Source: a virus | DNA length: 53,696 bases | IMG/VR virus record: IMGVR_UViG_3300025450_000802 | Location: 1-53,696 of that record | Strand: one strand, 5' to 3' | In this document: positions 1-21,783 of the stretch, in pieces | How the letters are laid out: each line of letters starts with the position of its first letter | Numbering within the stretch: the stretch's first letter is position 1 | The notes under the pieces: model-generated | Seen by the model: the letters and a program-made list of their open reading frames with translations, nothing else | The model's database searches: none | Told to the model about the DNA's origin: nothing | Translations under genes and position numbers: made by a program

Positions 1-1380
1 TAGCATAGGGCAACCTGTAATTTCACACCAACGTTCTAACAATTTTCTAATACCACTGCCATCGTTAGGTACTGTTTGTACACGACTACTGTTATCAGCG
101 TGTACAATAGCAGGATATAAGTCTGGATATTTACAACCTGCAACAACTTGCATGTATCTACTATCATTCCAGTGACGGGGCATAACAAAATAATTATGCA
201 CCGTTTCTTCTAATATAATGGGAGCAAATGGTCTAAATTTTTGTCTGCGTTTAATTTCATTTACTTTATCTTTAATTTCAGTTCCACGTGGGTCTGCTAA
301 TAAACTGCGATTGCCCAATGCTCTTGGTCCAAACTCGGCTCGTCCACTAGCAACACCTACCATTTTATTTGTAATTAATTCATTTATAATATCATCTACT
401 GGGTAGGGACCTTTAATTTCATGACCCAAAAAAGCATCGCGCCATGCTACTTCTTTACCATAACTTAATGCTGCTGCACCTAAACTATTGCCAGCATCGC
501 CTGGGTTAGGCATAATCCATATCTTGTTAAAATAATTACCTAACAATCTATTTGCTAGACAGTTAAGTGCTACGCCACCGCCATATACTAAGTTACGACT
601 GCGCCCTAACTTAACAGCAAGTTTCATAACATTACATATTAAATCTTCTGTGATCTTTTGTGTACAAGCAGCAATATCCATGTCACTTAAATGTGACATG
701 AAATTATCATCTACGCCTATATGTAGATTATTTTTAAATTGAAAGTTTTTAGCACTGTCTAATACTTCAAACTTCATTATGTCTGCTAATGTACTGCTTC
801 CATAAGCAACCATGCCCATGAGAATATATTCTTCGTCTAATGGTTTAAGCCCCGCACGCTTTGTCATAGCACTATAGAATAAACCTATACTATCAGGATA
901 ACTTTTACTCCATAGTTTTTTGTACTGTGCTATGCCATGACGATTGTAACGTGCGTCCCATATACTAATTGTGTCCATTTCACCTATAGCATCAATAACA
1001 ACTACGGTTGCGTCAGTGAAATGACTTGTTTGGAATCCAGCAGCAGCGTGACATTTGTGATGACTATGTGTTTTTACATGTTGTGTATCAAAACAATCCA
1101 ACACTTTTGTGCCTATTACTTTTTTAGCACTTGGATAAGTTAAATCTTGTCCTGCACGAAATTGACGATATAGTTTTAACCAGGGTTTTTCATAGTAATT
1201 AAGTGTATAGGGACCATGCATATAATTCAATGCATCTTCTACTATTTCAGTACATAGGTCTTTATCGTGTTTAACTTTACTATAACGCTCACTGTGACTG
1301 GCAAATCTTATTTCGCCGTCAGCACTGATAACAGTTAAACCTGCATCGTGAAATCCGCAACTTAATCCTATATGATTCAT
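1..1380 (-). CDS. NodU/CmcH-family O-carbamoyltransferase (3' end outside window)
   Basis: The frame opens with ATG at 1380 and stays open to base 1, giving 460 codons with no stop, so the C-terminus lies outside the window. By family knowledge these enzymes move a carbamoyl group from carbamoyl phosphate, through an adenylate, onto a hydroxyl of a sugar or other small molecule. Visible family signatures in order: an N-terminal HDAG with GEI and a SER-Y segment; HSHHKCHAAA (His107, His108, His111) as in the Kae1-like metal/nucleotide site; MGMVAYG; YGGGVALN near 266-273; GRAEFGPRALGNRS near 346-359; FRPFAPIIL; HADNSSRVQTV. The window ends just before the expected NTSFN block. The start overlaps the stop of the upstream SGNH gene as ATGA. 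Family assignment is firm. The acceptor is unknown; the neighbours suggest a glycan or modified amino acid rather than an antibiotic. Confidence 0.93.
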   Translation of the reverse strand, partial: MNHIGLSCGFHDAGLTVISADGEIRFASHSERYSKVKHDKDLCTEIVEDALNYMHGPYTLNYYEKPWLKLYRQFRAGQDLTYPSAKKVIGTKVLDCFDTQHVKTHSHHKCHAAAGFQTSHFTDATVVVIDAIGEMDTISIWDARYNRHGIAQYKKLWSKSYPDSIGLFYSAMTKRAGLKPLDEEYILMGMVAYGSSTLADIMKFEVLDSAKNFQFKNNLHIGVDDNFMSHLSDMDIAACTQKITEDLICNVMKLAVKLGRSRNLVYGGGVALNCLANRLLGNYFNKIWIMPNPGDAGNSLGAAALSYGKEVAWRDAFLGHEIKGPYPVDDIINELITNKMVGVASGRAEFGPRALGNRSLLADPRGTEIKDKVNEIKRRQKFRPFAPIILEETVHNYFVMPRHWNDSRYMQVVAGCKYPDLYPAIVHADNSSRVQTVPNDGSGIRKLLERWCEITGCPML

Positions 1381-2186
1381 TTAATAAATCCTTTAATTTG
1401 ATTCATCCATTTAACATGATGCAGAGGTCCAGGATGTTTTTTGTCTCGTGCTTTGTCATCTATTGGTACATATTGTGAAGTCCACTCAGGTAACAATACA
1501 ATAGACTCTAACTCCATTAATTTTAAAAAATTATATGTTTGATTTTCCCATGAACTAATGTATATGGATATATTCCTCAATCTTGCTATATAGTCTAGCA
1601 GATAAATTTGGTTTTTGCAAATTTTATACATATCTTCTAAAGGTATGGATCGATATATATCACTCGAATCAACACCAAAATCTTTGTTTACAGCCGAATT
1701 AACATCATTGCATATGTTAAGATGTGTAAGTATATCTAAATTTGGGTGATTTTTTGCTATTTGTAATCTGGTTAAACTAGGGAATAAGAAAACAGCATTT
1801 TTTATTTGTATATGTTGTGATAATATTAAAAACATATCAATCATTGAAGATATAGACCTACTAGGCAATCCAAAATTTACAGAGGTTTTATTTAATTCTA
1901 CAGACAATAATCTATGCCATAGCATTTTTTCAGGCAATCCAGTACCAAAAGTAAAACTACAGCCAAATGCTGCTATATCGGTACTATTGGGTAAATCAGT
2001 TCCCCTAAATCCATAATTGTTTATTTTATAATTAAAATGTTCTTTCTGCCAAGAATCAGAATATTTAATATCATCGTGCCCAAAAAAATCAGTTGTATAA
2101 TTTATTTCATTAGGATATGATGTGCTGTATGATAAAATATCATCTAATGATTTTGAATTTAACAAATTTAATTTTGCAAGTTTCAT
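1377..2186 (-). CDS. SGNH/GDSL hydrolase-like protein
   Basis: 269 residues. The block I serine motif GCSFTFGTG lies near residue 75, after NYGFRG, a combination common in SGNH-hydrolase-like proteins of glycan gene clusters. FGLPSRS fits the block II glycine. The C-terminal DKKHPGPLHH contains a DxxH that fits block V. SGNH enzymes are esterases, lipases or O-acyl-transfer enzymes, so this could add or remove an acyl group on a sugar; the substrate cannot be read from sequence. It starts at ATG 2186, overlapping the stop of the next SGNH gene by ATGA, and ends over the carbamoyltransferase start, so the three are likely translated as a coupled unit. No signal peptide or membrane segment is visible, which points to a cytoplasmic or virion-bound role. 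Confidence 0.7.
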   Translation of the reverse strand: MKLAKLNLLNSKSLDDILSYSTSYPNEINYTTDFFGHDDIKYSDSWQKEHFNYKINNYGFRGTDLPNSTDIAAFGCSFTFGTGLPEKMLWHRLLSVELNKTSVNFGLPSRSISSMIDMFLILSQHIQIKNAVFLFPSLTRLQIAKNHPNLDILTHLNICNDVNSAVNKDFGVDSSDIYRSIPLEDMYKICKNQIYLLDYIARLRNISIYISSWENQTYNFLKLMELESIVLLPEWTSQYVPIDDKARDKKHPGPLHHVKWMNQIKGFIK

Positions 2187-2920: not shown

Positions 2921-3021
2921 TTGTAGATAAAAGGATCTCTTTTACGCAATTCTTTAAGCTTTTTACGATAGCTAATTTCTAATTTAATTTTGTACCAAAT
3001 ATTACGAAAAAATCTTATCAT
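2917..3021 (-). CDS. Small basic 34-residue protein
   Basis: Short ORF that exactly fills the space between two longer genes. ATG at 3021 overlaps the stop of the amidinotransferase gene (ATGA), and its TGA at 2917-2919 overlaps the ATG of the SGNH gene. The product is 34 residues, rich in Lys/Arg and aromatic residues, and ends KELRKRDPFIYK. Perfect coupling at both ends is strong evidence that it is translated. I recall similar very short basic proteins in T4-like marine phages, but cannot check this here. No Cys, no transmembrane segment and no leader-core pattern of a RiPP precursor. Function unknown; it could be a helical adaptor for a neighbouring enzyme. Confidence 0.72.
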   Translation of the reverse strand: MIRFFRNIWYKIKLEISYRKKLKELRKRDPFIYK

Positions 3022-4070
3022 TTGTAATCTCCATATTCATCGTCACGCACAGTATCTAATGTAGCGCAATGAGGACCACCTGATAATGTTCTACAATGAC
3101 GCATTTGAATTGGCATTACATCAAAGCCATTACTTTCTAATTGTTTAATGATATTAGTTTGTCGATTTTCTACGGCAACTAATTTGTCGCTAATGCTTAA
3201 AACATTCATACCTAACCATGGGCTAGCAGGAGCCCAGTTTTCTAAGTAAGGGGTTTCTTCAGGTTTTTCACAATAAATCTTTTTCCAAGATTTAAAGTAT
3301 TCCGGACAGTTATTTTCATTAACACGATCAGGATTTAATAATACTACACCTGGTGCTAATGGCATAATGCTTGTATCTAAGTGTACGTAAGCATAGATAT
3401 TTTCTAATATGTGTACTGTATACTTGTCACCTAAAATAGTTTGCAACCATTGTGCACCAATTTTGTTACCACTGTTGCTTACAAGATAAAATAAATCCTT
3501 ACCACACTTAACAACATTAGCAGCATCAAACGCTGGTTCAAAGTCTGTAAGTGTAGGTTTACTCAAATCTGTACGGTCATATAACTCATCTAACAATTCA
3601 GGTTTAGGAGCTGAAATCCATTTGCTACCTGCTTTAAAATATTCTTTAAAAATATTTCTATAAGCATATGTTTCAAAAAAGCGTGATCTAAGTACCATTG
3701 GAGTTTCAATAAGCATGTCACCTATTACTAACACACTATCTCTAGGACAATAGCTGTAATAACCATCAGTTGTCCAATTTGGGCTAGAATGATATTTGGC
3801 ATGATTAACAATATCAGGTCGCAATACTTTTACTCCAACACTTTCTAATTGAGTTTGAAATAAATTTAAGTCTTCTTTGGTTTCTTCTATTACCTGTGAA
3901 GGATAACTACCTCCAGGTAATTTATTAACCATGTCATAGTTTGCATAGTCTACACAGTGAATATCTTTATATTTGGTCACAGGAACTCTAGCGAACTCTG
4001 CATTACCTAGAATAACTTCTTTTAGTGTACCCCATTCCGTATTTGAATTAACTTTACTTAACATTTCCAT
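3018..4070 (-). CDS. Amidinotransferase (glycine/inosamine amidinotransferase family)
   Basis: 350 residues from ATG 4070. Family enzymes move the amidino group of arginine to an amine acceptor through a covalent Cys-amidino intermediate. Visible signatures: EWGTLKEVILG near 12-22, CPRD at 108-111, FEPAFDAAN at 177-185 (family Asp region), HLDTS with His230, and HCRTLSGGPHC at 325-335 with the candidate nucleophile Cys335. Length is near that of bacterial inosamine and glycine amidinotransferases. Start choice: an upstream open extension to 4109 uses TTG and lies inside the previous gene; ATG 4070 is preceded by GGGAGAAG, and ATG 4064 is a second candidate. Overlaps the B12 radical SAM gene by about 13 bases. 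The acceptor is unknown; the nearby aminotransferase suggests an amino sugar or amine made in the same pathway (inference). Confidence 0.88.
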   Translation of the reverse strand: MEMLSKVNSNTEWGTLKEVILGNAEFARVPVTKYKDIHCVDYANYDMVNKLPGGSYPSQVIEETKEDLNLFQTQLESVGVKVLRPDIVNHAKYHSSPNWTTDGYYSYCPRDSVLVIGDMLIETPMVLRSRFFETYAYRNIFKEYFKAGSKWISAPKPELLDELYDRTDLSKPTLTDFEPAFDAANVVKCGKDLFYLVSNSGNKIGAQWLQTILGDKYTVHILENIYAYVHLDTSIMPLAPGVVLLNPDRVNENNCPEYFKSWKKIYCEKPEETPYLENWAPASPWLGMNVLSISDKLVAVENRQTNIIKQLESNGFDVMPIQMRHCRTLSGGPHCATLDTVRDDEYGDYK

Positions 4071-5797
4071 GCTTTCTTTCTTCTCCCGTACCAGTAAGTG
4101 TTTATACAAAATTGTTTAAATTCTATATTAGGTTTAACGATTTGCTTATCGATTTCGTCTACGATATTTATATTAAGGTCAAGTAGACATTTTTTAATAA
4201 ATTTTTGCAGGTCAGCAAAAAACTGATTTCTGTTTTGTTGATATACTATACAAGACGCACTATCGTAATCCCAATATATATCATCGTCACCAAACATTTG
4301 TCTGCCCCAAAAATCATTGTTGGTTATTGTATTTTCTAATGCATTTTTGGTTGCGTAATATTGATCACGCATTAAACAATCATTATTTTTCATATACTCA
4401 TATAACAATATGTAAAAGCTACTAAGTTTCATACCTGATGATTTGCTTAAAAGATTAGTCCAGCCTAAGCTATGACTACTAATTAAAAACCATTTAAATA
4501 AAAAACATTCCAAATATTCTTCAGTAGTCAGTGTGTTAGTTGCCATTACATAATTACCGTACTCAATAGGAATATTCTTATTTCGTTTAGCAAAAAAACT
4601 TACTTGAGGTGTATAAGCAAATTTTAGTCCATGCTTTTGAATATAATCTATATCACTAAACTCAGTATTCTTGTATGCCTCTAGAGGATGCCCAAATATC
4701 CAACCCTCAGGATTAATGTCTAACACATTTAATAATCCCTCAGTCCAACTCTGTAGAGTTTCACCTGGTAACCCAACAATAAAGTCGTGATAAGTTTGCA
4801 TATTATTGTCGGCATATCGTTTACTGATTTCTGCTAATTTATCATTTGCAATATTAATTCGTTTAATGTTCATTAAGGTAGCTTTATTGCTGCTTTGTAA
4901 CGCTAATGTTACACCGCCCCTATTCATACTATCTAATATTTTACTCATTTCAAATATACGATCGGGGCTGCTTTTTGCCCAAGTAGCACTAATCTTTTCT
5001 GGGTATCCAGTAGATAGATGTTGCTGTCTTATATATTTTACCAATTCTAAATCTCGTTTGATAATGCCAAAATTAGCATCAGCAACTTCGATGTATTCGG
5101 TTTTCTTTTTAGTGAAATAATCAATTTCAGCAAATAACCTTTCATCACTAAACTGATAAACTTTACTATAATAATCTGCGCCTAAATCACAGAATGTGCA
5201 ACTATAAGGACATCCTCTGTTAGTTTCCCAAACAGGCATAAAGTTATAATCATATCTTTCATAAAAACTATCAAACAGTCCAGTTAAATAAGGACTTGGT
5301 ATCACGTTAACATCTTTTAATCGTTCACGTGTAGGTGTAAGTGTATATGTGTTGTTTTGTATATAGGCTAATCCATTAACTGTAGATAAATCTGTGTTAT
5401 TAAGTAATGCACGTAACAGTTCTAAAAGAGTTTGTTCGCCTTCCCCCCAAACACTTATATCTACATAACTATGCTCTTGTAAATAAGTTTGATCTTGTTG
5501 AGCATTAGGACCGCCTATTATAATTTTACAATTAGGGTATTTTTCTTTAATTAATTTAGCAATAGTTAAATGATATGTTGTGTTCCAACCATAATTACTG
5601 AATAATGCAACGTCGGGGTCTACAATTTTTTCAATATATAAATTTGGATCAATTTTTTCAAAATAGATATCAATTAGTTTATAATTATCTGTAATATCTT
5701 TATGTTGACTTACATATGTCCAAAGTATTCCTGAACTATAAGGCAAATACATATTGCCGTTAAAGTCTTCTTGGCATTGAAAAAAGTACACATTCAT
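4058..5797 (-). CDS. B12-binding-domain radical SAM protein
   Basis: 579 residues. The N-terminal 1-140 resembles a cobalamin-binding Rossmann domain (DVALFSNYGWN, KIIIGGPNAQ, DISVWGEGE), without a DxHxxG motif, as in many class B radical SAM proteins. The radical SAM core follows with CPYSCTFC, Cys196/Cys200/Cys203, the CxxxCxxC that binds the 4Fe-4S cluster. Later signatures include DANFGI and GLPGET, usual in the methylthiotransferase/methyltransferase-like class. Such enzymes methylate unactivated carbons or rearrange rings; the specific reaction is not deducible. ATG 5797 overlaps the TAA of the aminotransferase (TAATG). It differs in architecture from the seven N-twitch radical SAM proteins upstream and is not their paralog. 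Confidence 0.9.
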   Translation of the reverse strand: MNVYFFQCQEDFNGNMYLPYSSGILWTYVSQHKDITDNYKLIDIYFEKIDPNLYIEKIVDPDVALFSNYGWNTTYHLTIAKLIKEKYPNCKIIIGGPNAQQDQTYLQEHSYVDISVWGEGEQTLLELLRALLNNTDLSTVNGLAYIQNNTYTLTPTRERLKDVNVIPSPYLTGLFDSFYERYDYNFMPVWETNRGCPYSCTFCDLGADYYSKVYQFSDERLFAEIDYFTKKKTEYIEVADANFGIIKRDLELVKYIRQQHLSTGYPEKISATWAKSSPDRIFEMSKILDSMNRGGVTLALQSSNKATLMNIKRINIANDKLAEISKRYADNNMQTYHDFIVGLPGETLQSWTEGLLNVLDINPEGWIFGHPLEAYKNTEFSDIDYIQKHGLKFAYTPQVSFFAKRNKNIPIEYGNYVMATNTLTTEEYLECFLFKWFLISSHSLGWTNLLSKSSGMKLSSFYILLYEYMKNNDCLMRDQYYATKNALENTITNNDFWGRQMFGDDDIYWDYDSASCIVYQQNRNQFFADLQKFIKKCLLDLNINIVDEIDKQIVKPNIEFKQFCINTYWYGRRKKAWKC

Positions 5798-6444
5798 TAG
5801 GCTAAATATGGCTCAAATACTGGTTGCTTAGATAAATCTTTGTAAGTTTTACTACTACCTGTTACTGGATTGTCATCGGCTATATCTTCTAACAACAATA
5901 AACCTTTAACTGCTTCTTCAGGAGTCATATACATATGATAACCAATACATTCATAATTATCAACATCGTGCATAACTTCTTTATGACGTCCATCGTAAAT
6001 CATAGGTCTACACCAATTTACAAAGTTAATGTTATTAGTTAGTATAACACCACCGCGACCTATTTTCAATGTTTTTCTATGATGAAAACTCACACAAAAA
6101 TATGAATCTTGAACATACATGCCTTTATTAAAGCAAACAGCTCCATCGATAATGTGCGTGTTGCCCAAATTGTAGTATCCTGACCAATCTTGATCTACAA
6201 ATCGTATTTTATTTCCAGCATGAATGCATTGCATAGGTACGCTGGCATATGTATGTTTTGGGAGTGTGATAACTTGATCGGTAATGTTTAAATATTTCAT
6301 ACACAAGAATAACGCACTACTGCAACTATCTACACATACAGCATACTTTGATCCTGCATATTCTGCTAATTTGTTTTCAAATATTGTTACACAATCCCAA
6401 GGATCGTTAATGTTATATCCTTTACTTATGAGTTGGGATATCAT
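5797..6444 (-). CDS. Half-size DegT/DnrJ/EryC1-type PLP aminotransferase
   Basis: 215 residues against the usual 360-400. The N-terminal two thirds are recognisable: YAGSKYAVCVDSCSSALFL (PLP phosphate region), PKHTYASVP, IIDGAVCF (PLP ring Asp region), and SFHHRKTLKIGRGGVILTN, where the Lys of SFHHRK matches the PLP lysine of SFHxxK in sugar aminotransferases. The C-terminal small domain is missing and the protein ends soon after the MTPEEAVKGLLLLE helix. Start ATG 6444 has a strong AGGAG eight bases upstream and lies inside the end of the dioxygenase gene. No frameshift remnant follows: the next gene begins at the stop codon. It may be a genuine minimal enzyme making an amino sugar or amine, or a dehydratase-like or structural variant. 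Confidence 0.82.
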   Translation of the reverse strand: MISQLISKGYNINDPWDCVTIFENKLAEYAGSKYAVCVDSCSSALFLCMKYLNITDQVITLPKHTYASVPMQCIHAGNKIRFVDQDWSGYYNLGNTHIIDGAVCFNKGMYVQDSYFCVSFHHRKTLKIGRGGVILTNNINFVNWCRPMIYDGRHKEVMHDVDNYECIGYHMYMTPEEAVKGLLLLEDIADDNPVTGSSKTYKDLSKQPVFEPYLA

Positions 6445-7162
6445 ATGGTTCTCCTAATTCTTTATCAAACCAATATAAACTGCGATGAGGGCGATCATCG
6501 GTTTTATGTTGAGCATCACTATAATAATAAAATAATCTAAAAGTATTTCTACTCATGCCTTCAGGACAAGTTAATGGATCAGGATAACCATGAAAGCCAC
6601 GTTTATGATAACGCCATATAATTGCACGATTGAACAATGGTGGTATACGTTGAATTCGTTTTTCATTATTAAAGTCGTTGAAGTCTAATGCTCCTCCCCA
6701 TTCTTCTTTCCAATTAGGATTTAAGTAGATAATAAAACTAAGCATTCTATGCACTTTAATTTGTTCATTCCAGTTAAAGTCAGTGTGCATTTTTAAACTA
6801 TCACCTGTAAAGCTACGACTATAACCAGCACCTGTTAAATAAGGATCAGGAATTAAATCTTTTATTCCTGTAACATTGCAAATCCATTCCATACCCAATG
6901 CACTGTGCATTTGATTTACAAATTCATACGCAACTGGTGCATGTTCTACTTTTTTACATTCTTTCATGTAGCTGCCTTTGCGTGTAAACTCTGTCCAATA
7001 CTGATCAGGTATAGTTTCGCATTCATTAGCTAATTTTAATGCAAAATCTTCAGGTAAAAAGTTGTCTAAAACTATCATCGGGAATGGTGGAGTTCCAACA
7101 AATTTATTATTCAATTCTTGAAAATTACCAAAGTTATTTTTTAAATGCTTAATGATTTGCAT
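6422..7162 (-). CDS. 2OG-Fe(II) dioxygenase, prolyl-4-hydroxylase-like
   Basis: 246 residues. The Fe(II) triad is visible: MHTDF (His126, Asp128) and GFHGY (His191), followed by SRNTFRLFYYY, whose Arg205 (or Arg209) would bind 2-oxoglutarate. LSFIIYLNPNW and EWGGALDF are typical beta-strand signatures of P4H-like oxygenases. These enzymes hydroxylate protein side chains or small molecules. The gene is first on the minus strand after the divergent region at 7163-7238, with AAGGAC before ATG 7162 and an AATAAATA late-promoter-like site further upstream, so it probably heads a transcript through 1. Similar dioxygenases are common in T4-like marine phages near tail genes. The substrate is unknown; a hydroxyl it makes could be the acceptor for the downstream carbamoyltransferase (inference). 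Confidence 0.88.
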   Translation of the reverse strand: MQIIKHLKNNFGNFQELNNKFVGTPPFPMIVLDNFLPEDFALKLANECETIPDQYWTEFTRKGSYMKECKKVEHAPVAYEFVNQMHSALGMEWICNVTGIKDLIPDPYLTGAGYSRSFTGDSLKMHTDFNWNEQIKVHRMLSFIIYLNPNWKEEWGGALDFNDFNNEKRIQRIPPLFNRAIIWRYHKRGFHGYPDPLTCPEGMSRNTFRLFYYYSDAQHKTDDRPHRSLYWFDKELGEPYDIPTHK

Positions 7163-7182
7163 GGTATTGTCCTTATATTAGG

Positions 7183-7190
7183 TATTTATT
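7183..7190 (-). promoter_or_regulatory. Late-promoter-like AATAAATA
   Basis: AATAAATA on the minus strand, about 20 bases before ATG 7162. It is one mismatch from the T4 late octamer TATAAATA and has nearly the same distance to the start codon as the perfect plus-strand copy at 7208-7215. The two point away from each other. Confidence 0.5.
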
Positions 7191-7207
7191 GGTTGTTTTA
7201 TAGGTGT

Positions 7208-7215
7208 TATAAATA
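7208..7215 (+). promoter_or_regulatory. T4-type late promoter TATAAATA
   Basis: Perfect TATAAATA on the plus strand, 23 bases before ATG 7239. In T4 this octamer is recognised by the late sigma factor gp55 and transcription starts a few bases downstream. Between it and the ATG there is GGGAG as ribosome binding site. This is the cleanest late promoter in the window. Confidence 0.75.
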
Positions 7216-7238
7216 CTTTATTAGACGGGAGTTTATTT

Positions 7239-7910
7239 ATGATACTTGATTGGCAGTATAATGTTAATACTAAAATTGCATCAGTAGATGTAGTACCAGG
7301 TTTACGATACGAAACCCCAGACGGTGGACAAACTATTAATAAATTTGTAGATGGTGAACTAGTAAGTACTTTCCACAAGTTTGGACCTGATAAAAAATTC
7401 ACAGGAGCTGACCCACAAGGTTCTGGACGTTTTGGTATTCCAGCAGATGAGATTTATGATGACTGGCCTGCTGAAGTTATGTGGATAGCTAAAACATATC
7501 CTGATGTAGTAGGTGAATTAATTCCCGATTGGGACAAGGGCTTTTTAAATAAAAACGGTGAAATAGAAGATATCGGTAAAAAACGCGGCATGGGTGTTGT
7601 AAGTTCAGATAAGCCAGTAAGTATTAACCGCATCTGTCAACCTGCTTGGGTTCAAGAGTGGTGGGATTGGGATACTGTTGCTGTTAACCCTAATAAAAAA
7701 TTAGACGAAAATTGTCATTTTGGCATTGAATGGAAACGCAATAAAGCAACAGGTAAAATTGTAAGAATAGGTAACAGACATCCGCAAGTTCCATGTTGTG
7801 TGTTCCCACACTTACATGGTCCATATGAAGTAACTGCTGATGATATTGTTAAAAACGAAGGAACTTGGTTAAACAATTGGTCTTTTGAAAAATTACAAAG
7901 CGTTGGCTAA
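7239..7910 (+). CDS. Uncharacterised protein, lone plus-strand gene
   Basis: 223 residues, not recognised. It is the only convincing plus-strand gene. It has its own perfect late octamer, an SD (GGGAG) at proper distance and phage-like codon use. The sequence is Trp- and Asp-rich, with GRFGIPADEIYDDWPAEV, QPAWVQEWWDWDTV and a C-terminal PQVPCCVFPHLHGPYEVT region that could be a small metal site (two Cys, two His), but no named fold is evident. It has no signal peptide or membrane segment. The last 18 bases overlap tail to tail with the end of the minus-strand gene 7893-9083, and no terminator separates them, so the two transcripts would be antisense at their 3' ends. Possible roles: late virion-associated or enzyme-partner protein. 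Confidence 0.82.
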   Translation: MILDWQYNVNTKIASVDVVPGLRYETPDGGQTINKFVDGELVSTFHKFGPDKKFTGADPQGSGRFGIPADEIYDDWPAEVMWIAKTYPDVVGELIPDWDKGFLNKNGEIEDIGKKRGMGVVSSDKPVSINRICQPAWVQEWWDWDTVAVNPNKKLDENCHFGIEWKRNKATGKIVRIGNRHPQVPCCVFPHLHGPYEVTADDIVKNEGTWLNNWSFEKLQSVG

Positions 7911-13957: not shown

Positions 13958-13961
13958 AATT

Positions 13962-15152
13962 TTACTCCTTTAATAATTTATTTAATTCTGGAAATACTTC
14001 TGCAAACTTTTCATCACGACTATTATCTAACCATTGTGTATATTGTAAAAATCTTTCAACTGCAACACTATCACTGGGCTTACTAAGAGTTTGCTCTATG
14101 TTATGTAGATCCCAAGGTTGCATAACTTTACTACAATCTATAATTATTTGTTTTTTTATATTTTCGGGCAACGTCCATGGGCTTAGATAACTAGGATCAT
14201 AACACCAATTCAAGTGTACGTGCAACCCCATTTGATTTTTAAAAAAGTCATAAAATTCTGGGAGATATAATGCACTGTAGGTACTAATAGTTTGTACGAT
14301 ACTTAAGTCAATAAAATCATAACCTTGTAACTTCTTTAAGTTATTTAATGTTGTATTCCAATCGCTGCCTGAGCGTATATAACTATTGCGTTTGTCTAAA
14401 TCATCAATACTGGCACTAACACTAATACTTTTAAATTGACTCCAAAGATTAACTAATTCTTCAGGTACTTGTGTAAGATTAATATTATACCATAAGTCTA
14501 CTTGATGGTGCAAGCCTCGTTTAATTAACATTTCCAAATATCGAAAATGCTTTTTAACCATGGTAGGTTCGCCACCATTGACATAAATGCGTTTAAGACC
14601 ATTGCTCTTTTCTAACAATTCATCCCAAAACTTATCTTGTTCGAACCATTCTCCTTTTTCAATGTTACTATAATCTGTAACAAAGTTTAGGTCTTTTTGT
14701 AATTTTTTATATTCAGCGATCCATTTACTGCTGCTAACAGGATTACAAGTGCGGCAGCGTAAATTGCAGATGTTGCCAAGTCTGAGTTCAATAAAACGAA
14801 AATCAACATTGACAGTTCCATCGGGTAACATGCTATCGATGATAACTCTGCTATCTTGTAAATATCTTTCATTTTCTTCTAACCTCTTAGATTTAATACC
14901 TGCACGTTCTTCGTCATAGCAACGCTTACATGCATTGGGTTCAATACCATCACGCATCTCACAGCGAGTTTTCTTATAGAAATCACTGTTCATCACACTT
15001 TCAATACTATCTTTATTAAGACTTAATATTTTATCATTAGTACGTGCGTTACTAGCTGCATGGGTATGATCGCTAATACAACAAAGTGTTGCGCCACCAT
15101 GTGGATGTGTAGCCAAATGAGTAAAGGGCAATACGCAGATTTTATCAGTCAT
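13962..15152 (-). CDS. N-twitch radical SAM protein
   Basis: 396 residues. N-terminal module: ICVLPFTH (Cys6), HGGATLCC (Cys24, Cys25), CKRCYDEERAG (Cys75, Cys78). Radical SAM core: CNLRCRTC (Cys129, 133, 136) with NPVSSSKW, and NGGEPTM (GGEP 193-196). The C-terminal LDNSRDEKFAEVFPE matches the paralogs at 11033-13458. ATG 15152 overlaps the end of the preceding unknown gene by 8 bases. Its closest relative in the window appears to be the 11033-12244 product (shared EERAG.KSKRL after the CxxC), pointing to local duplication. Confidence 0.93.
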   Translation of the reverse strand: MTDKICVLPFTHLATHPHGGATLCCISDHTHAASNARTNDKILSLNKDSIESVMNSDFYKKTRCEMRDGIEPNACKRCYDEERAGIKSKRLEENERYLQDSRVIIDSMLPDGTVNVDFRFIELRLGNICNLRCRTCNPVSSSKWIAEYKKLQKDLNFVTDYSNIEKGEWFEQDKFWDELLEKSNGLKRIYVNGGEPTMVKKHFRYLEMLIKRGLHHQVDLWYNINLTQVPEELVNLWSQFKSISVSASIDDLDKRNSYIRSGSDWNTTLNNLKKLQGYDFIDLSIVQTISTYSALYLPEFYDFFKNQMGLHVHLNWCYDPSYLSPWTLPENIKKQIIIDCSKVMQPWDLHNIEQTLSKPSDSVAVERFLQYTQWLDNSRDEKFAEVFPELNKLLKE

Positions 15153-16173
15153 GAATTAATGTCCCGTCATCATTTGTTATATAGTATCCTAAAAACACTG
15201 GAGTTGTAGAAATAATTTTTTCATAAAAATCTTTACCAGTAATTATTTGGCCATCAATAGAACCTAAAATATGTCTTCCCGGAGTATACATAGCATCTGT
15301 TGTATCAATATAATTACCTAAATTATTTTGTTCTATCCAATGATAAAATGATCGTCTTCCATCATACATATCTGCACGTTTGGTATTATCAAAATGCATG
15401 AATATATAATCTGTTAATATTGTTTGTGGTTTAACCTCGCCCCTGCGAACTAATTCTAAATCGTTAGTACAAAAACAAGAATTTAAATCTTTGCCTACTG
15501 TACTAAAGTCAGCAACCAAATCTCCACCGCAGGGTAAGCTAAAGTTTAGATAATCAATTGGTTCTAATTGTGTATAGTTAGTACTATTAAATTCAATAGT
15601 GTTATTACGCACAGACATGTTAAACACGCTATCACGTTCAACATTAGCCCATTCTTCTGGTACTTTAGGTGTGCGTTCAATAAAGTGCACAAGGTTGTTT
15701 ACTTTCTCTAATAAAAAATATTTTTCAACATAAACAGGATCGCCGTTTGGATCGTTTGGATCAGATTTTAAATCAATTGCCTCTTTTTCAAATCTAAAAT
15801 GCAATTCGTTTAATTTGTTTAACTCTGGATCCATTACGTCAGTTAAGTTTAAATGCAATGCAGTATCCATTGGAATACCTAATTGGTTAAGACGGTTGAT
15901 TGTATTATTCATAGCCACACGTGCTTGTGCCAATAACTCAGGGGTAACTGAAGGATAATAATTTGTATGAAAGATCATTTTAGAAATGTCAAAAGAATTA
16001 CGCAATCGTAAGAATTGTGACACGAACTTTTTAGTAAGCGGAAAGTTATTTAATGTATAAGTCAACGTTTGAGTTGGTGACATATTTAATAATTCAGTTA
16101 CTGAATGCCCTTTCACTGCGTTTGTTGTATGATAATCATTTTCGCCTGGGCCGAATACTGCTTTAAGTTTCAT
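15145..16173 (-). CDS. Uncharacterised protein, tandem paralog B
   Basis: 342 residues, family not recognised. It is clearly paralogous to the next gene upstream (16185-17201). Both start MK.xxVF, share PLTKKF, KLNELHF.FEKE and EKVNN.VHFIE, and share an exactly conserved GGDLVADFSTVGKDL at about 219-233, followed by CxCTND.ELVRRGEVK. Both end with PGRHILG and GIITGKDFY, then DDGT. The strict conservation of the central block against divergent flanks suggests an active or binding site; the CxC could bind metal. No radical SAM, PLP or nucleotide motif. SD AAGAGAT before ATG 16173. Flanked by N-twitch radical SAM genes, it could be their substrate or partner protein (inference). Confidence 0.85.
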   Translation of the reverse strand: MKLKAVFGPGENDYHTTNAVKGHSVTELLNMSPTQTLTYTLNNFPLTKKFVSQFLRLRNSFDISKMIFHTNYYPSVTPELLAQARVAMNNTINRLNQLGIPMDTALHLNLTDVMDPELNKLNELHFRFEKEAIDLKSDPNDPNGDPVYVEKYFLLEKVNNLVHFIERTPKVPEEWANVERDSVFNMSVRNNTIEFNSTNYTQLEPIDYLNFSLPCGGDLVADFSTVGKDLNSCFCTNDLELVRRGEVKPQTILTDYIFMHFDNTKRADMYDGRRSFYHWIEQNNLGNYIDTTDAMYTPGRHILGSIDGQIITGKDFYEKIISTTPVFLGYYITNDDGTLIHD

Positions 16174-16184
16174 AATTTTATCTC

Positions 16185-17201
16185 TTAATAAATTGGAGTT
16201 CCATCATCTTCGCTCAAGTAACATCCTAACAATGCAGGAGTACGTGAAATAACATAGTCGTAAAAATCTTTACCTGTAATAATACCTTGATCGTTTTTCC
16301 CTAAAATATGTCTTCCTGGATTATATCTAGGTTGATTATAATCAAGATATTGATCAACTTTATTATCTTGGCACCATTTATAATGTCTAGATTTCATTAT
16401 TGGATCAAGTGTGAAGTTATTAAACATTAAAAATACATAATCAGTTAAAAAACGTTGCTGCTTTACTTCTCCTCTACGTACCAATTCCATGTCATTGGTG
16501 CATGAGCAAACAAACAAATCTTTACCTACTGTACTAAAATCAGCTACTAAATCACCACCAAGTGGTTGTCCAAAATCAGCGTAATCTATATCTTGTAATT
16601 CATAGTATTTGGCTTTGCTATTAGTGCGAATAGCCATGTTTAAATTGCTTATTTTAGTTATGCTATCCCATTTATCACGTTGCGGAGTTAACTCAATAAA
16701 GTGAACTACGTTATTGACTTTTTCAAACAATTCATACAATCGTTGATAATTTGAACCTACACTGTCATCAAATTCTAACTTGATTAACTCTTTTTCAAAA
16801 ACAAAATGTAGTTCATTTAGTTTATCATGTTCTGGTTCATACACATCATTATTAAGAAATAGATTGTCATCAATTGTATAACCATATGTTCTTAATTCAG
16901 TTAGTGTTTCATTCATTTCTTTTTTGGCTTGTAGTAATGATGTTTCACTAACATTTGTATAGTAGTTATATCTATAATCTAAAATGTCTGTACCGTCTTT
17001 TTCTTTAAAGTTTTCAGCCTGCTGTTTTCTATACTCAGGCCACAAATTTAAAAACTTTTTAGTTAATGGTAAATCATTAAAACTATAAGTTAATTTTGTA
17101 TTATTAGGATTATCTTTAATATCCATAAAGTTACGTGTATACGCAACATTTGATGTAAAAAAATCCGCTTTTCCTTGTGTAAAAACTACATTAAATTTCA
17201 T
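16185..17201 (-). CDS. Uncharacterised protein, tandem paralog A
   Basis: 338 residues from ATG 17201 (MKFNVVF), which overlaps the stop of the upstream radical SAM gene as ATGA. An open extension to 17222 uses TTG and would start inside that gene. The sequence aligns end to end with paralog B, including the invariant GGDLVADFSTVGKDL and CSCTNDMELVRRGEVK, and the C-terminal PGRHILG...GIITGKDFY. Rich in Asp, Asn and aromatic residues; no signal peptide or membrane helix. The two copies have diverged well outside the block, so both are probably kept under selection. Function unknown. Confidence 0.85.
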   Translation of the reverse strand: MKFNVVFTQGKADFFTSNVAYTRNFMDIKDNPNNTKLTYSFNDLPLTKKFLNLWPEYRKQQAENFKEKDGTDILDYRYNYYTNVSETSLLQAKKEMNETLTELRTYGYTIDDNLFLNNDVYEPEHDKLNELHFVFEKELIKLEFDDSVGSNYQRLYELFEKVNNVVHFIELTPQRDKWDSITKISNLNMAIRTNSKAKYYELQDIDYADFGQPLGGDLVADFSTVGKDLFVCSCTNDMELVRRGEVKQQRFLTDYVFLMFNNFTLDPIMKSRHYKWCQDNKVDQYLDYNQPRYNPGRHILGKNDQGIITGKDFYDYVISRTPALLGCYLSEDDGTPIY

Positions 17202-18589
17202 GGTATTTCTCTTTTCCACCAAGCTAATAATTCTGGATCAAGGCTATAAATTGTCTCAATGTTTACTTTATCTTTACGAATAGCGTTTAATTGCGTTTGA
17301 TAGTGTCTACCATTTTTAAATTGTTCATTATGTATATCAGGCCATTGTTCTGCAAACGTTGGTCTGTTCTTCATCTCTTTTAAAGTATTTACTAATGTGT
17401 ACTGTTTACGTGTTGACCTTGGTTCCATGTATTCTAACAATTGATCAATATGTCGATCTAATACGTTACGTGGCCAAGCAAATGGACTAAACACAATATC
17501 AGGATGAAATGCAAACATAATTTTAGTTTCTATCTTAACATCTAATTCTATACTTAAATCAAACAAATCTTTAAGACTAAACATGCCAGGACCCGTTATA
17601 GTTAAATCTAATAGCATTCTGTCTTGTCCACCGGGCAATGTTAATCCTTCTTTAAAGTTATTTAACCATTGCTCCCAAACAATACCCTTGCGTATAAATT
17701 CAACTATTTCTCCTGTGCCATCTATACTAGCACACATTAGCCAATCTTTAAATAGTGGTAAGTACTCATACAAGTTTTTACCAAAGTATTTTGTACGACT
17801 TAGATTACTGTTATAACGCAAGTAACAATTTTTAGCGCTGCCATTCTTAACCATTTCTTCTAATGCCCACCAATGTATTTCATACATCAATGGTTCGCCA
17901 CCTACCCAATAGCATTCTTCAACTATGCCGCGACTAATAGCATCACGAAATTCAGGTTCAACTACTTCAACTTGAAATTTTTGCATTTTAGCTTTAACTT
18001 CAGGAATCATAAATGGTTGCCATTTAGGTGACCACATATTATGTTGTTTCTTTTCAGCTTCCCAACTACTGCTTAATTGCTCACCGCACATTCTGCATTT
18101 AAAGTTACAAAGATTGCTATAACGATAATCAAATGATATAGGTTCCATTGTAGTATACCCTGTATCATCGGTTTTGTCAAAACATTCATCAATTTTATCA
18201 ATAAACAAATTACCAGTAAACCAACGACGGTAGTTACTTACACTAAGTATATCATCGTTACAGACATCACATTGTGGAATACGTTCGCCGCGCATTAATT
18301 TAACACGTATGTCACGCATATATTCACTGTTCCAGTGTTCCTTTAAACTTACTGGATTAAAATCGTCTGCTTCTGTTTTACTTTCAGTTACCTTACCGTA
18401 CTTTTCATCGTTGCTACTATCAATATACTGTTTTTGGAAACTATGTTGTTCTCTGCTAGCGCAGCACAATCTTCGTTCACCTTGAGGGCTAATATATGTA
18501 TGAGTCCAAGGCGCTGTACAAAATACAGGATTAGGATTATTTTCTGCAGGACTACCATGTTCCCAAATTGGTATAATTCGCTTACTCAT
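17198..18589 (-). CDS. N-twitch radical SAM protein
   Basis: 463 residues. N-terminal module: FCTAPWTH (Cys24), LCC (Cys42, Cys43), EHWNSEYMRDIR, CDVC (Cys107, Cys110), with an insertion between the CC and CxxC pairs compared with the shorter paralogs. Radical SAM core: CNFKCRMC (Cys161, 165, 168) with QLSSSWE, and VGGEPLM (GGEP 230-233). The C-terminal third is divergent and lacks the FPE tail. Starts at ATG 18589, overlapping the previous gene by 8 bases (ATGAGTAA), and ends over the start of unknown paralog A, which links the two genes functionally. Confidence 0.92.
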   Translation of the reverse strand: MSKRIIPIWEHGSPAENNPNPVFCTAPWTHTYISPQGERRLCCASREQHSFQKQYIDSSNDEKYGKVTESKTEADDFNPVSLKEHWNSEYMRDIRVKLMRGERIPQCDVCNDDILSVSNYRRWFTGNLFIDKIDECFDKTDDTGYTTMEPISFDYRYSNLCNFKCRMCGEQLSSSWEAEKKQHNMWSPKWQPFMIPEVKAKMQKFQVEVVEPEFRDAISRGIVEECYWVGGEPLMYEIHWWALEEMVKNGSAKNCYLRYNSNLSRTKYFGKNLYEYLPLFKDWLMCASIDGTGEIVEFIRKGIVWEQWLNNFKEGLTLPGGQDRMLLDLTITGPGMFSLKDLFDLSIELDVKIETKIMFAFHPDIVFSPFAWPRNVLDRHIDQLLEYMEPRSTRKQYTLVNTLKEMKNRPTFAEQWPDIHNEQFKNGRHYQTQLNAIRKDKVNIETIYSLDPELLAWWKREIP

Positions 18590-20135
18590 TGATTCCTAAC
18601 TCATCTTTCTTAGTATTCCAACCATGTGCTACTTCATCACTTACATATCCTGACTCAGTTGTAGCAGGATCTCCGCCAAGTTCAGCAATGGTATTAACTT
18701 CGTCACGATAGTTTGATGTAAGAATTTCTTGTTCTGTAGGAACAGGAACATCAATGCTATCTAACCATTCTACATATTCTTGTGGGAAAGTTTTACGAAA
18801 GTCTTTACCACGGCGAACATCATATTGCAAGTAGAAATTTTTAAAATCATTCCATAATTGAGGTTGTTCGCTTGTATTACGATGTGGGGTTTTAATAACG
18901 TCAAGATAATCAACTAAACGTTGTACGTGTGCGATTTCCATGTCAGTAAACAATTGTACGCCATGTTTATCTTTTTCATTACGTGCAACTACATTATTAA
19001 GCCATTTCTCAATCTTTTCTTTATACATAGTTTTAATATGTTCGGGAAGAATAGCTGGACTTTGAAAGCTAGGGAAACGCAATAGATTTAATGTCATTGT
19101 AGGATAACGTGCGCCATATTTGCGTTTAATCTCAATCATTTCATCCATGAACTCTGTAATGCTTGCTAAACACAAACCATTAATAGTCATCATAATATGC
19201 AATGCTTTTAAATTACCTTCATTGATAATACGATGAATGTTTTGTTTCCATTGATCATAAATCATACCGTCACGAATATAATCAGCTTGTATGCCTAATG
19301 CTTCCTGACTAGTGTAAATTTCAAAGTCTGGTACATAGTGACTCATTTCGATAAGTTTATCCATTAATGCTTTTTTAGGCACTAAATTGCTATTCATAGC
19401 ATAGCGCAAACGTTTGGCTTTATCTGGATTTTCTTTAAACCAATTAAATAGTTTCCAAACGCCAGCAGCCATTAATGGTTCTCCACCTGTAATGCGTATT
19501 TCTTCTAAGTTGTCTTGTAGACCTTCTTCCCACCAACGCCAAAAAGCACGTATATAAGGATTTTCATCATCATTGTCATAACCCTTAGCCCATGGTGCGG
19601 TATCAACAAAGTGACCACGACCATCGCTTTGAATATTTCTATAAGGGCCGAACTTCTTAATATCTTTTACCCATGTAGTTGAGAATGCAGGATTACAATA
19701 ACTACAAGCAAAGTTACAAGTACGGTCAAAGCTAATCTCTAATGTTCTTAACATTACGTTAGCTTCCCAAGGCATCTTAGCTGCTGCTATAAGATCAGAA
19801 TCACGAAAGATTTCAGTTTTATAAACACGATCACTGATATTTTCACGACCAATATCTTCTACTTTCCAACAGTATTCACATTCATTAGGACGATCACCTT
19901 CTTGCATATACTTGCGCATAAGCTTTTTGTGTTGAGTATTGTGAATAGCACTTGGATTTGCTTCTAATTCACTTGCATCAATATAATGTCCAGGTGGATG
20001 GTGACAACTAGCAGTTTGTCCATGTCCTAACCAAATCGTAGCATTGTACCATTTAGCTCCACAAAAAGTTTCACTAATGGGATCAATAACTCTTATCTTG
20101 TAATCTTTAAATCCTTCGCCGGGTTTTCTAGCCAT
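18582..20135 (-). CDS. N-twitch radical SAM protein, variant KW/CHHPP subgroup
   Basis: 517 residues from ATG 20135; a longer reading to 20159 uses TTG. The N-terminal module differs from the others: FCGAKW (Cys25) and ASCHHPPGH (Cys44) in place of the CC pair, then CEYCW (Cys86, Cys89). Radical SAM core: CNFACSYC (Cys140, 144, 147) with FSTTW, and TGGEPLM (GGEP 217-220). All key positions coincide with those of the next gene upstream, marking a tandem pair. The C-terminal tail after about 440, including FRKTFPQEY, is longer than in the paralogs. Seven bases separate it from the preceding stop; the SD (GTGAG) overlaps that stop. Confidence 0.92.
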   Translation of the reverse strand: MARKPGEGFKDYKIRVIDPISETFCGAKWYNATIWLGHGQTASCHHPPGHYIDASELEANPSAIHNTQHKKLMRKYMQEGDRPNECEYCWKVEDIGRENISDRVYKTEIFRDSDLIAAAKMPWEANVMLRTLEISFDRTCNFACSYCNPAFSTTWVKDIKKFGPYRNIQSDGRGHFVDTAPWAKGYDNDDENPYIRAFWRWWEEGLQDNLEEIRITGGEPLMAAGVWKLFNWFKENPDKAKRLRYAMNSNLVPKKALMDKLIEMSHYVPDFEIYTSQEALGIQADYIRDGMIYDQWKQNIHRIINEGNLKALHIMMTINGLCLASITEFMDEMIEIKRKYGARYPTMTLNLLRFPSFQSPAILPEHIKTMYKEKIEKWLNNVVARNEKDKHGVQLFTDMEIAHVQRLVDYLDVIKTPHRNTSEQPQLWNDFKNFYLQYDVRRGKDFRKTFPQEYVEWLDSIDVPVPTEQEILTSNYRDEVNTIAELGGDPATTESGYVSDEVAHGWNTKKDELGINE

Positions 20136-20142
20136 ATATTTC

Positions 20143-21783
20143 TCACTGTTTAATTGCAATGTTCATACATTCTTTGTAATACTGTTGCATTTCGGGGAAT
20201 GTATCATTAAATTTAGTACCACGTCTACGATCATACTCTTTAATAAACAAATAAAAATTCATTTTATTAGTAAGTTGCTGATCTACTGGTAATTCTTGTT
20301 TCATTATAGCAAGATCACGTTTTAATTTAAGAATTTCATAAGGCTTAAATCCCTCAAAAGTCTCAAGATAATCGTCACCTTGTACGTTTTCCTCCATATA
20401 CTTTAACACACGTTCTACGTATTTAATACCCCACTCACCTGCATTTTGTACACTAAACCAAGGTGGGTAACGTAATAATGGGATATCAAACCAAATACGT
20501 TGAAAGGGTTTATCATTTGCTTGTGCGCGTCCACCAAATTCTTTACGTAGTTCAAGAATCATTTCCATAAACTTCTTTAAACTAGGTATGCTCATAATAT
20601 TAAATGTATTAATAAAACTCACACTAGTTAATTTAGTTTCACGTAAGAATGTGCGAACATTTTGTAATAAACGATCAAAATCTAATCCAGTACGCATGTA
20701 TTCAGCTTGCTCACCAAATCCATCTAAACTTACAAACAACATAAAGTGCTTGTAAGCCTTGTCATTATAATTATATATGTAAGTAAAACTATTATCGTCA
20801 GTTTCTAAACATTGCCCAACTTTAGGAAATGTTTGTTTAATTTCACTACGTTCAATGCTAGGCAATGAACTGTTGTGATATTTTTTCATGTCACTGCCAA
20901 TAATATAGTTTTGCCATGTTTGCCAAGGCGTGCCGTCTTTTGGATCAGGTACATAACATTCTGTTGAATACTGTACATTGTCTAAACGTTTGACCTTTTC
21001 AATAAACTTATCAAATAGTTTTTGATCGGGTGGGCACATATTACTAGTAATGCTAAGTTCTAATTCTTTATGTGGGTGTTCATAGACATAATCTAATACT
21101 TTAAAAGTATTAACGTCCATTAATGGTTCACCACCTGTCATACGGAAAACGCGCAAGTCATAATAAACATTAGGCCACCATTGCCAAAATGCCTGTAGAT
21201 AAGGATTATCTTTTGTAGAAACTTTTAATGGCATCATGCCGCGCTTTTCTAATGATTCAATATGATTGTGCTCCATATTAGAAAGTTTATATGGACCATG
21301 TTTTTCAATCTCATCTTGCCAAGTAGTACTTAAATGCGGACTACAATACATACATTTAAAATTACAGGCTTGATTAAAATTTACTTCTACATATCTCGGT
21401 GTAACGTCATAATCAAAACTATTGTTAGTAACTTCATCAAATGTAGGAGCAGCCCACCATTCGCTACTACGATAATGACGATCACTTAAATGATTGCCCT
21501 CAGCATCTTCAATTTTCCAACAATAACTACATCCTTCAGGACGTGTGCCTTCTAGCATCTGTTTGCGTTCATACATTTTAAATTTTGTATTATGTAATGC
21601 TGATGGATTATCTGTTAATTCTTCTAATGGAATTTTATGAGTGGGCGGATGATAACAGCTTTGTGTTAATCCACTTGGTAAATGTAAACTTACTTGTGTC
21701 CATTTAGCCAAACACATAGAGGGGCTGACCTTATTTAAACGGTCGCGCATATCTCTTGCTGATTGATCGTATTCTCCGCTCAT
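20143..21783 (-). CDS. N-twitch radical SAM protein, variant KW/CYHPP subgroup
   Basis: 546 residues. N-terminal module: MCLAKW (Cys24), QSCYHPPTH (Cys43), CSYCW (Cys85, Cys88). Radical SAM core: CNFKCMYC (Cys140, 144, 147) with LSTTW, and TGGEPLM (GGEP 217-220). An extra segment of roughly 80 residues between about 250 and 335 lies inside the radical SAM barrel compared with its partner at 18582-20135. Ends NDTFPEM-type tail. ATG 21783 overlaps the TAA of the preceding gene (TAATG). Same chemistry class as its partner; substrate unknown. Confidence 0.92.
   Translation of the reverse strand: MSGEYDQSARDMRDRLNKVSPSMCLAKWTQVSLHLPSGLTQSCYHPPTHKIPLEELTDNPSALHNTKFKMYERKQMLEGTRPEGCSYCWKIEDAEGNHLSDRHYRSSEWWAAPTFDEVTNNSFDYDVTPRYVEVNFNQACNFKCMYCSPHLSTTWQDEIEKHGPYKLSNMEHNHIESLEKRGMMPLKVSTKDNPYLQAFWQWWPNVYYDLRVFRMTGGEPLMDVNTFKVLDYVYEHPHKELELSITSNMCPPDQKLFDKFIEKVKRLDNVQYSTECYVPDPKDGTPWQTWQNYIIGSDMKKYHNSSLPSIERSEIKQTFPKVGQCLETDDNSFTYIYNYNDKAYKHFMLFVSLDGFGEQAEYMRTGLDFDRLLQNVRTFLRETKLTSVSFINTFNIMSIPSLKKFMEMILELRKEFGGRAQANDKPFQRIWFDIPLLRYPPWFSVQNAGEWGIKYVERVLKYMEENVQGDDYLETFEGFKPYEILKLKRDLAIMKQELPVDQQLTNKMNFYLFIKEYDRRRGTKFNDTFPEMQQYYKECMNIAIKQ

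Follow-up and report, generated by a model that had tools for sequence, protein, structure and literature searches.

We analysed a 53,696-nucleotide window (positions 1 to 53,696 of IMG/VR record IMGVR_UViG_3300025450_000802) from a bacterial virus of the RaK2-like jumbo lineage. Right behind its tail genes, the window carries a long series of mostly minus-strand genes that overlap or abut. Seven of these encode N-twitch radical SAM (rSAM) enzymes, and they are accompanied by a B12-binding rSAM protein, predicted glycosyltransferases, and several other putative tailoring enzymes. The features of the locus are as follows.

1 to 1380, minus strand: O-carbamoyltransferase (NodU/TobZ/NovN type), cut by the contig end
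1377 to 2186, minus: SGNH-like protein 1, with a GCSFT motif
2183 to 2920, minus: SGNH-like protein 2 (DUF6071)
3018 to 4109, minus: L-arginine amidinotransferase, StrB1 type
4165 to 4172, minus: late-promoter-like TATAAATA upstream of the amidinotransferase
4058 to 5797, minus: B12-binding rSAM protein, probable C-methyltransferase
5797 to 6444, minus: compact (215 aa) DegT/DnrJ-type protein, putative sugar aminotransferase
6422 to 7162, minus: 2OG-Fe(II) oxygenase
7208 to 7215, plus: late-promoter-like TATAAATA upstream of the plus-strand gene
7239 to 7910, plus: gene without a family hit
7893 to 9083, minus: probable GT-B glycosyltransferase
9080 to 9739, minus: SGNH-like protein 3
9739 to 11085, minus: N-twitch rSAM rS448, on an orphan branch of the tree
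11033 to 12244, minus: N-twitch rSAM rS403 (accessory)
12241 to 13458, minus: N-twitch rSAM rS405 (accessory)
13439 to 13957, minus: 172 aa protein, found only in one near-identical contig among the 80 loci
13962 to 15152, minus: N-twitch rSAM rS396 (core, single-copy orthologue)
15145 to 16173, minus: 342 aa protein, paralogue of the next (44% identity)
16185 to 17222, minus: 345 aa protein, with a relative in only one IMG/VR contig, the near-identical one
17198 to 18589, minus: N-twitch rSAM rS463 (core, single-copy orthologue)
18582 to 20159, minus: N-twitch rSAM rS525 (core)
20143 to 21783, minus: N-twitch rSAM rS546 (core), with 97 IMG/VR relatives
21783 to 22736, minus: predicted GT-A glycosyltransferase
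22726 to 23073, minus: conserved 115 aa protein (c9), in 19 sister loci
23075 to 23872, minus: GT8-like glycosyltransferase a
23856 to 24671, minus: GT8-like glycosyltransferase b
24668 to 24973, minus: conserved 101 aa protein (c5), after the c4 gene in 66 of 67 loci
24989 to 24995, minus: late-promoter-like CTAAATA in front of the cassette
25673 to 26626, minus: Ser/Thr-rich (31%) protein in the tail module (c4), candidate acceptor
26639 to 27874, minus: tail protein (c7), with a weak Peptidase_G2 match below the cut-off and a homologue in phage Phosso
28688 to 47824, minus: giant 6378 aa protein, inferred to be a virion structural protein by position, as annotated structural giants lie at the same position in RaK2 and Phosso

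Enzyme families at the locus

We first asked whether the rSAM assignments were robust. All seven N-twitch proteins exceeded the curated NF033640 cut-off of 170 bits, with scores of 359 (rS448), 336 (rS403), 421 (rS405), 356 (rS396), 306 (rS463), 300 (rS525), and 297 (rS546). Each retains CxxxCxxC and GGEP, and an alignment showed auxiliary-cluster cysteines, C...C(C/H/Y)...CxxC, before the core in all seven. Pairwise identity is at most 39% and mostly 20-31%, indicating old paralogues. Open-frame lengths initially suggested fused rSAM genes, but these proved to be separate ORFs. The eighth rSAM has a B12-binding plus an rSAM domain in Pfam and is nearest to the methyltransferases TokK (E = 6e-72) and CysS. 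However, it scored only 238.6 bits against the KedN5 model (cut-off 700) and is therefore only a distant relative of KedN5-type C-methyltransferases.

The remaining enzymes were assigned with varying support. The carbamoyltransferase has both Carbam_trans_N and Carbam_trans_C domains over the Pfam cut-offs, although its C-terminus is lost at the contig end, and it matches phrog_1601 and, in the PDB, decarbamoylnovobiocin carbamoyltransferase and TobZ. The amidinotransferase is an excellent near-full-length match to StrB1 (1bwd, E = 1.3e-106 over 337 residues) with its HCATLD active-site block kept. The 2OG oxygenase (E = 1.5e-14) and the DegT protein were over Pfam cut-offs. The latter is a compact form also present in sister phages, and keeps the Lys and Asp blocks. 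The SGNH assignments are weaker, as only SGNH-like protein 2 has a Pfam hit (DUF6071, E = 4e-11), although the aligned family, including SGNH-like protein 3, shows a conserved G[CD]S...H block pattern. SGNH-like protein 1 was recognized by motif only, without a Pfam hit, and has phmmer relatives in sister loci.

Glycosyltransferases were predicted from profiles and structure models. A family profile of the GT8-like proteins matched glycogenin (E = 8.5e-4) over about 95 positions, and the DxD position reads DVD in GT8b but EAD in GT8a. The AlphaFold2 model of the GT-A protein (pLDDT 83) had as its best Foldseek hit the PBCV-1 capsid-glycosylating enzyme 2p6w (E = 2e-4), and nearly all top hits were glycosyltransferases. 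The model of the probable GT-B protein (pLDDT 74) matched trehalose-6-P synthases, OGT, and T4 BGT. Sequence searches of solved structures with an N-twitch protein, the GT-A, and the GT-B returned nothing useful.

These results confirm what a preliminary description of the sequence had observed, namely seven N-twitch and one B12-type rSAM proteins, a 2OG dioxygenase, a DegT-type enzyme, an amidinotransferase, a carbamoyltransferase, and three SGNH proteins in mostly overlapping genes over about 22 kb behind the tail-fibre genes. Three corrections apply. The functional unit extends to about 24973 and includes glycosyltransferases that had not been noticed, the phage is RaK2-like jumbo rather than a standard marine T4-like phage, and the gene at 7239 to 7910 lies on the plus strand inside the block.

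Conservation of the cassette in sister phages

We next compared the locus with those of sister viruses, which hold 2-19 N-twitch rSAMs per record. The order tail protein-GT8-GT8-GT-A-rSAM array is almost invariant, with the c4 gene followed by GT8-GT8-GT-A in 66 of 67 loci and an rSAM present in 64. Four rSAMs form orthologous clades, with support of 94 (rS546), 96 (rS525), 100 (rS463, in 17 phages), and 98 (rS396, in 17 phages). The order GT8-GT8-GT-A-rS546-rS525-rS463-rS396 was fixed in 29 of 29 loci having all four rSAMs. Among full-length sister rSAMs, 308 of 309 keep CxxxCxxC. Searches of INPHARED by tblastn returned no match for rS546, the GT-A, or c4, and only weak N-twitch matches, nearly all in Vibrio phages.

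The preliminary description had proposed one dedicated pathway whose target could be a virion protein, virion glycan, or host surface, an interpretation that our comparison supports only in part. It holds for the core, and the outcome named beforehand as refuting it, unrelated rSAM singletons in sister phages, did not occur. It does not hold for the B12 rSAM, 2OG, DegT, amidinotransferase, carbamoyltransferase, and SGNH genes, which are exchangeable accessories found in other sister phages. In those phages DegT, amidinotransferase, and carbamoyltransferase travel as a trio next to a single rSAM, and the trio sits beside rS546 in 6 loci. The region is variable, accessory genes differ between sister phages, and rSAM cassettes come and go in pelagimyophages (PMC7029224), which could suggest unconnected auxiliary genes gathered by chance in a plastic tail region. 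However, the fixed order of four orthologues and the glycosyltransferase linkage make this very unlikely.

Genomic context offered further clues. Sister loci add UDP-Glc/GDP-Man dehydrogenase and NAD epimerase near rS546. An A-type Fe-S carrier occurs in 16 of 37 distinct sister records, including 7 of the 8 records of at least 229 kb, and in none of 4 cultured relatives without N-twitch proteins over the cut-off. However, some arrays sit away from tail genes, beside an endolysin gene or a DNA ligase. Bacterial N-twitch neighbourhoods showed no sugar theme and no dominant theme of any kind among 102 neighbours, although some Bacteroidetes contigs carry rSAM-carbamoyltransferase pairs.

Late-promoter-like boxes were also examined. 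The window contains only 2 copies of TATAAATA, whereas 13 are expected by chance. Either CTAAATA or TATAAATA occurs at the place in front of the cassette in 15 of 25 distinct upstream sequences. As a word, CTAAATA is not enriched upstream of ORFs in sister loci (9% against 7-10% for control words), although TATAAATA is (27%).

Inferred function and rival explanations

Our best reading is a late, cytoplasmic glycan-building and radical-tailoring cassette attached to the tail module, which we hold tentatively. In this view, the GT8-like and GT-A enzymes would attach sugars to a Ser/Thr-rich tail-module protein, for which c4 is the best candidate. The core enzymes rS546, rS525, rS463, and rS396 would then modify the sugars by hydrogen abstraction (epimerization, dehydrogenation, deoxygenation, or cross-linking), while exchangeable accessory enzymes would add amino, guanidino, carbamoyl, methyl, and hydroxyl groups. 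The product would be a diversified, unusual glycan on the particle, useful for host binding or for shielding. Our analysis directly establishes the gene content, conserved order, orthology, and intact catalytic motifs, and it lends support to the glycosyltransferase folds and the late-promoter-like box. That a glycan is present on a virion protein, that sugars are the rSAM substrate, that c4 is the acceptor, and that the phage benefits are all inferences. Conserved synteny in phages does not prove that c4 is the acceptor.

Alternatively, the cassette may modify the host's envelope glycan (O-antigen or capsule) to exclude other phages or help release, with phage enzymes altering nucleotide or lipid-linked sugars in the cytoplasm and the host exporting them. 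This is the published reading of sugar clusters in jumbo cyanophages (PMC7824862) and pelagimyophages (PMC7029224), and the nucleotide-sugar enzymes near rS546 in sister phages speak for it. However, no membrane protein, flippase, polymerase, or lipid-linked transferase was seen in the window cassette. No window protein tested had a 19-residue stretch with mean hydropathy of 1.8 or more, and a membrane helix was predicted by hydropathy in only 26 of 911 genes in or near sister arrays. Late-promoter-like control and the fixed tail linkage fit virion decoration better, and we consider a host-envelope target unlikely, though it remains possible.

SPASM/twitch rSAMs often modify peptides, and the rSAMs could instead act directly on a virion protein, cross-linking or epimerizing residues in a RiPP-like chemistry. 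Cultured relatives Phosso (a phage of S. meliloti) and Atu_ph07 (a phage of A. tumefaciens C58) carry, in the same genomic slot, a different rSAM set (four SPASM-type) flanking a ~300 aa protein with a conserved tail, DxCHxSCHASCHxSRSRR. By our count this protein is Atu_ph07 gp170, the first gene of the virion cluster defined by mass spectrometry, CDS 170-215 (PMC6102473). Its counterpart in Phosso is XYS97446. However, no such tail exists in the window or the sister loci, and the 342 and 345 aa window proteins were rejected as homologues of the Phosso protein h285. The Phosso and Atu_ph07 rSAMs score 20-24 bits against the N-twitch model, which represents a separate family, and glycosyltransferases dominate the conserved core. 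There is also no intergenic room for RiPP precursors, as 188 of 222 adjacent rSAM genes overlap or abut and none are 90 nt or more apart, while c9, conserved along most of its length, and c5 show no leader/core pattern. A His-Xaa-Ser system was not supported either, with HxsB scores of 15 bits in the window and 33.7 in Phosso (cut-off 370) and no HxsA match. Direct protein modification is unlikely but not excluded.

Finally, the DegT protein, StrB1-type amidinotransferase, O-carbamoyltransferase, and B12 methylase all resemble antibiotic tailoring enzymes, which could imply a diffusible aminocyclitol-like small molecule (streptidine/bluensidine logic) made during infection. We regard this as very unlikely, since no resistance or export gene was recognized, control is late-promoter-like, and most sister cassettes lack the trio. 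A bolder version of our main reading, possible but doubtful, is that a jumbo-phage lineage widespread in virus metagenomes decorates its own tail with an antibiotic-like glycan (guanidino, carbamoyl, C-methyl, radically epimerized or cross-linked sugars) made by an array of 2-19 N-twitch enzymes. This would be a first substrate class for N-twitch enzymes and a first case of radical tailoring chemistry on a virion. N-twitch rSAM proteins are a large family for which we found no characterized member, and the conserved, ordered core with glycosyltransferases gives a defined set of substrates to test. If correct, some jumbo phages carry out radical tailoring chemistry on their own particles, which would explain earlier unexplained counts of many rSAM genes and Fe-S carriers in phage genomes and offers a source of new sugar-modifying enzymes.

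Comparison with known systems

Phages with multiple rSAM genes were noted before, and the conserved cassette of glycosyltransferases and rSAMs is a new variation on them. The T4-like environmental viral genome TARA_ERS488813_N000010 has 12 rSAM genes together with an A-type carrier (PMC5332604), but the relevant passage counts genes only, without describing glycosyltransferase linkage, fixed order, an orthologous core, or a late-promoter box. The host recognition cluster of pelagimyophages (PMC7029224) is a tail-fibre region with glycosyltransferases, of which GT8 is the most represented in these phages, and rSAM cassettes. It belongs to a different phage lineage, its authors propose host O-chain modification, and its freshwater members lack rSAM genes. 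Jumbo cyanophages have sugar and halogenated-metabolite clusters (PMC7824862) with glycosyltransferases, epimerases, 2OG oxygenases, and carbamoyltransferases, but a search of the main text found no mention of radical enzymes, and no fixed tail linkage is described in the section on these clusters that we examined. The streptidine/bluensidine and 2-deoxystreptamine pathways (StsC, StrB1, carbamoyltransferases, BtrN) share with the window a DegT-type protein, a StrB1-type amidinotransferase, an O-carbamoyltransferase, and a twitch rSAM, which in these pathways acts on aminocyclitols. In the window no cyclitol dehydrogenase or kinase was recognized, and glycosyltransferases and a tail module are found instead. 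Although it shares 13% identity and comes from a eukaryotic virus without rSAM enzymes in its system, the PBCV-1 capsid glycosyltransferase (2p6w) is the best fold match of the protein at 21783 to 22736 and is itself a virus enzyme acting on a virion protein.

Enzymes of the proposed tailoring block

We first asked whether the eight radical SAM (rSAM) enzymes and accompanying genes proposed in the preliminary description withstand profile and structure searches. The observation held. All seven N-twitch rSAM proteins encoded in the 53.7 kb IMG/VR virus record are real, scoring 297-421 bits against NF033640 (cut-off of 170 bits), and each has CxxxCxxC and GGEP. They are old paralogues, sharing at most 39% and mostly 20-31% identity. 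The eighth rSAM carries a B12 domain and resembles the TokK and CysS methyltransferases. The carbamoyltransferase, DegT protein, and 2OG oxygenase passed their Pfam cut-offs, with the DegT protein being a compact 215 aa form that is also present in sister phages. The amidinotransferase matched StrB1, the inosamine-phosphate amidinotransferase of streptomycin synthesis, at E 1e-106 over 337 residues with the HCATLD active-site block. In contrast, assignments to SGNH rest mostly on motifs.

The preliminary description missed the glycosyltransferases. Just upstream of the array lie two GT8-like proteins, whose family profile matched glycogenin with E 8.5e-4, and a GT-A protein. The AlphaFold model of the latter (pLDDT 83) retrieved almost only glycosyltransferases, the best being the PBCV-1 capsid-glycosylating enzyme. 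Other features in or near the block were as follows:

7239-7910, + strand: lone gene inside the minus-strand block, with its own TATAAATA box
7893-9083: protein modeled as a GT-B fold (pLDDT 74)
15145-17222: two paralogous proteins (44% identity) inside the rSAM array, with no relatives found outside the near-identical contig
28688-47824: 6378 aa ORF (21% Ser/Thr) at the position of the RaK2/Phosso giant structural gene, but about twice the RaK2 length

Lineage and conservation of the gene order

The baseplate wedge protein matched RaK2-like jumbo phages at 30-33% identity, and the 6378 aa ORF occupies the position of their giant structural gene. Sister records reach 525 kb. To determine whether the genes co-occur in related phages, we searched IMG/VR with the N-twitch protein rS546 and obtained 97 relatives. 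Whole sister records of the first set hold 2-19 N-twitch rSAMs and, of 14 records reached through the gene for c4 (a Ser/Thr-rich tail-module protein), 13 hold N-twitch matches. Across 80 loci, 281 of 340 rSAM genes neighbor another rSAM gene, and 188 of 222 consecutive pairs overlap or abut. A FastTree phylogeny of 157 rSAMs gave single-copy clades for the N-twitch proteins rS463 (support 100) and rS396 (98) in 17 phages each, as well as clades for rS525 (96) and rS546 (94). Where all four occur, their order was the same in 29/29 loci. When searching with c4, 66 of 67 loci with enough sequence continued with c5 (a conserved 101 aa protein), GT8, GT8, and a GT-A gene, and 64 had an rSAM within the retrieved sequence. 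The cluster motif was kept by 308 of 309 full-length sister rSAMs.

The remaining chemistry is exchangeable. UDP-sugar dehydrogenase and epimerase occur near rS546 in some sister phages, and a trio of DegT, amidinotransferase, and carbamoyltransferase sits beside an rS546 gene in six loci. The proposal that the whole set forms one dedicated pathway was therefore only partly supported. Furthermore, seven loci (L016-L020, L028, and L029) have rSAM arrays in other genome positions, near endolysin or DNA ligase genes, so the tail position is not universal.

Contigs binned as Pelagibacter, Rickettsiales, Betaproteobacteria, and Rhodobacteraceae MAGs (L085, L086, L089, and L135) carry a GT-A gene followed by rSAM genes in the layout of the cassette and look like mis-binned phage, with L085 also having a carbamoyltransferase and a full-length DegT. 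One bacterial bin, the Elusimicrobia MAG MJ-2014_bin-0981 (L099-L128), has about 20 contigs with N-twitch rSAM proteins, many of which are 600-1200 aa long and in tandem. Bacteroidetes contigs (L104, L142, and L151) have an N-twitch rSAM directly followed by a carbamoyltransferase and a row of 320-380 aa genes. The cultured Vibrio phages K566 and F86 (L081 and L082) carry small groups of rSAM genes, some resembling the N-twitch family, without detectable relatives of these glycosyltransferases.

Regulation, compartment, and possible substrates

We next considered when and where the cassette might act. The T4 late-promoter word, TATAAATA, occurs only twice in the window, compared with 13 expected by chance, and both times just upstream of genes of the block. 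CTAAATA stands 16 nt upstream of the first cassette gene, and CTAAATA or TATAAATA is found there in 15 of 25 distinct sister upstream sequences. However, CTAAATA as a word is not generally enriched upstream of ORFs, so this rests on position. No cassette protein in the window has a membrane helix by hydropathy. An A-type Fe-S carrier occurs in 10 of 24 and 7 of 14 sister records, with one record being in both sets, and in 7 of the 8 records of at least 229 kb. The carrier is absent from four cultured jumbo relatives, none of which has an N-twitch protein over cut-off. This is consistent with supplying Fe-S clusters, although the comparison is small and non-random.

The simplest reading is that the glycosyltransferases would assemble a glycan on a tail protein, followed or accompanied by rSAM tailoring, in the cytoplasm late in infection. 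That sugars are the rSAM substrate is inferred from the company the genes keep, and that c4 is the acceptor is inferred from linkage and composition. Host-envelope glycans remain possible. Direct modification of a protein also remains possible, because two cultured relatives have a different rSAM set in the same slot behind the tail genes:

Phosso 179870-195666 (L245:3871-19667)
Atu_ph07 115997-123646 (L246:17998-25647)

In both, four SPASM-type rSAM genes lie around a ~300 aa protein ending in a conserved DxCHxSCHASCHxSRSRR tail (D[YF]CH[ST]SCHASCH[SN]SRSRR), possibly an rSAM-modified virion protein. By our gene count, anchored on lysin gp141 and baseplate gp181/182, this protein is gp170, the first gene of the MS-defined virion cluster CDS 170-215 of Atu_ph07, although the text of that study (PMC6102473) does not name gp170 itself. 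The motif was absent from the window and from all other loci retrieved.

Relation to published phage gene clusters

In a literature search limited to open papers, we found no description of the conserved cassette of glycosyltransferases and rSAMs, its ordered core, or its accessory logic. Its elements do have published counterparts, including phages with up to 12 rSAM genes and Fe-S carriers (PMC5332604), rSAM cassettes in the tail regions of pelagimyophages (PMC7029224), and sugar clusters in jumbo cyanophages (PMC7824862).
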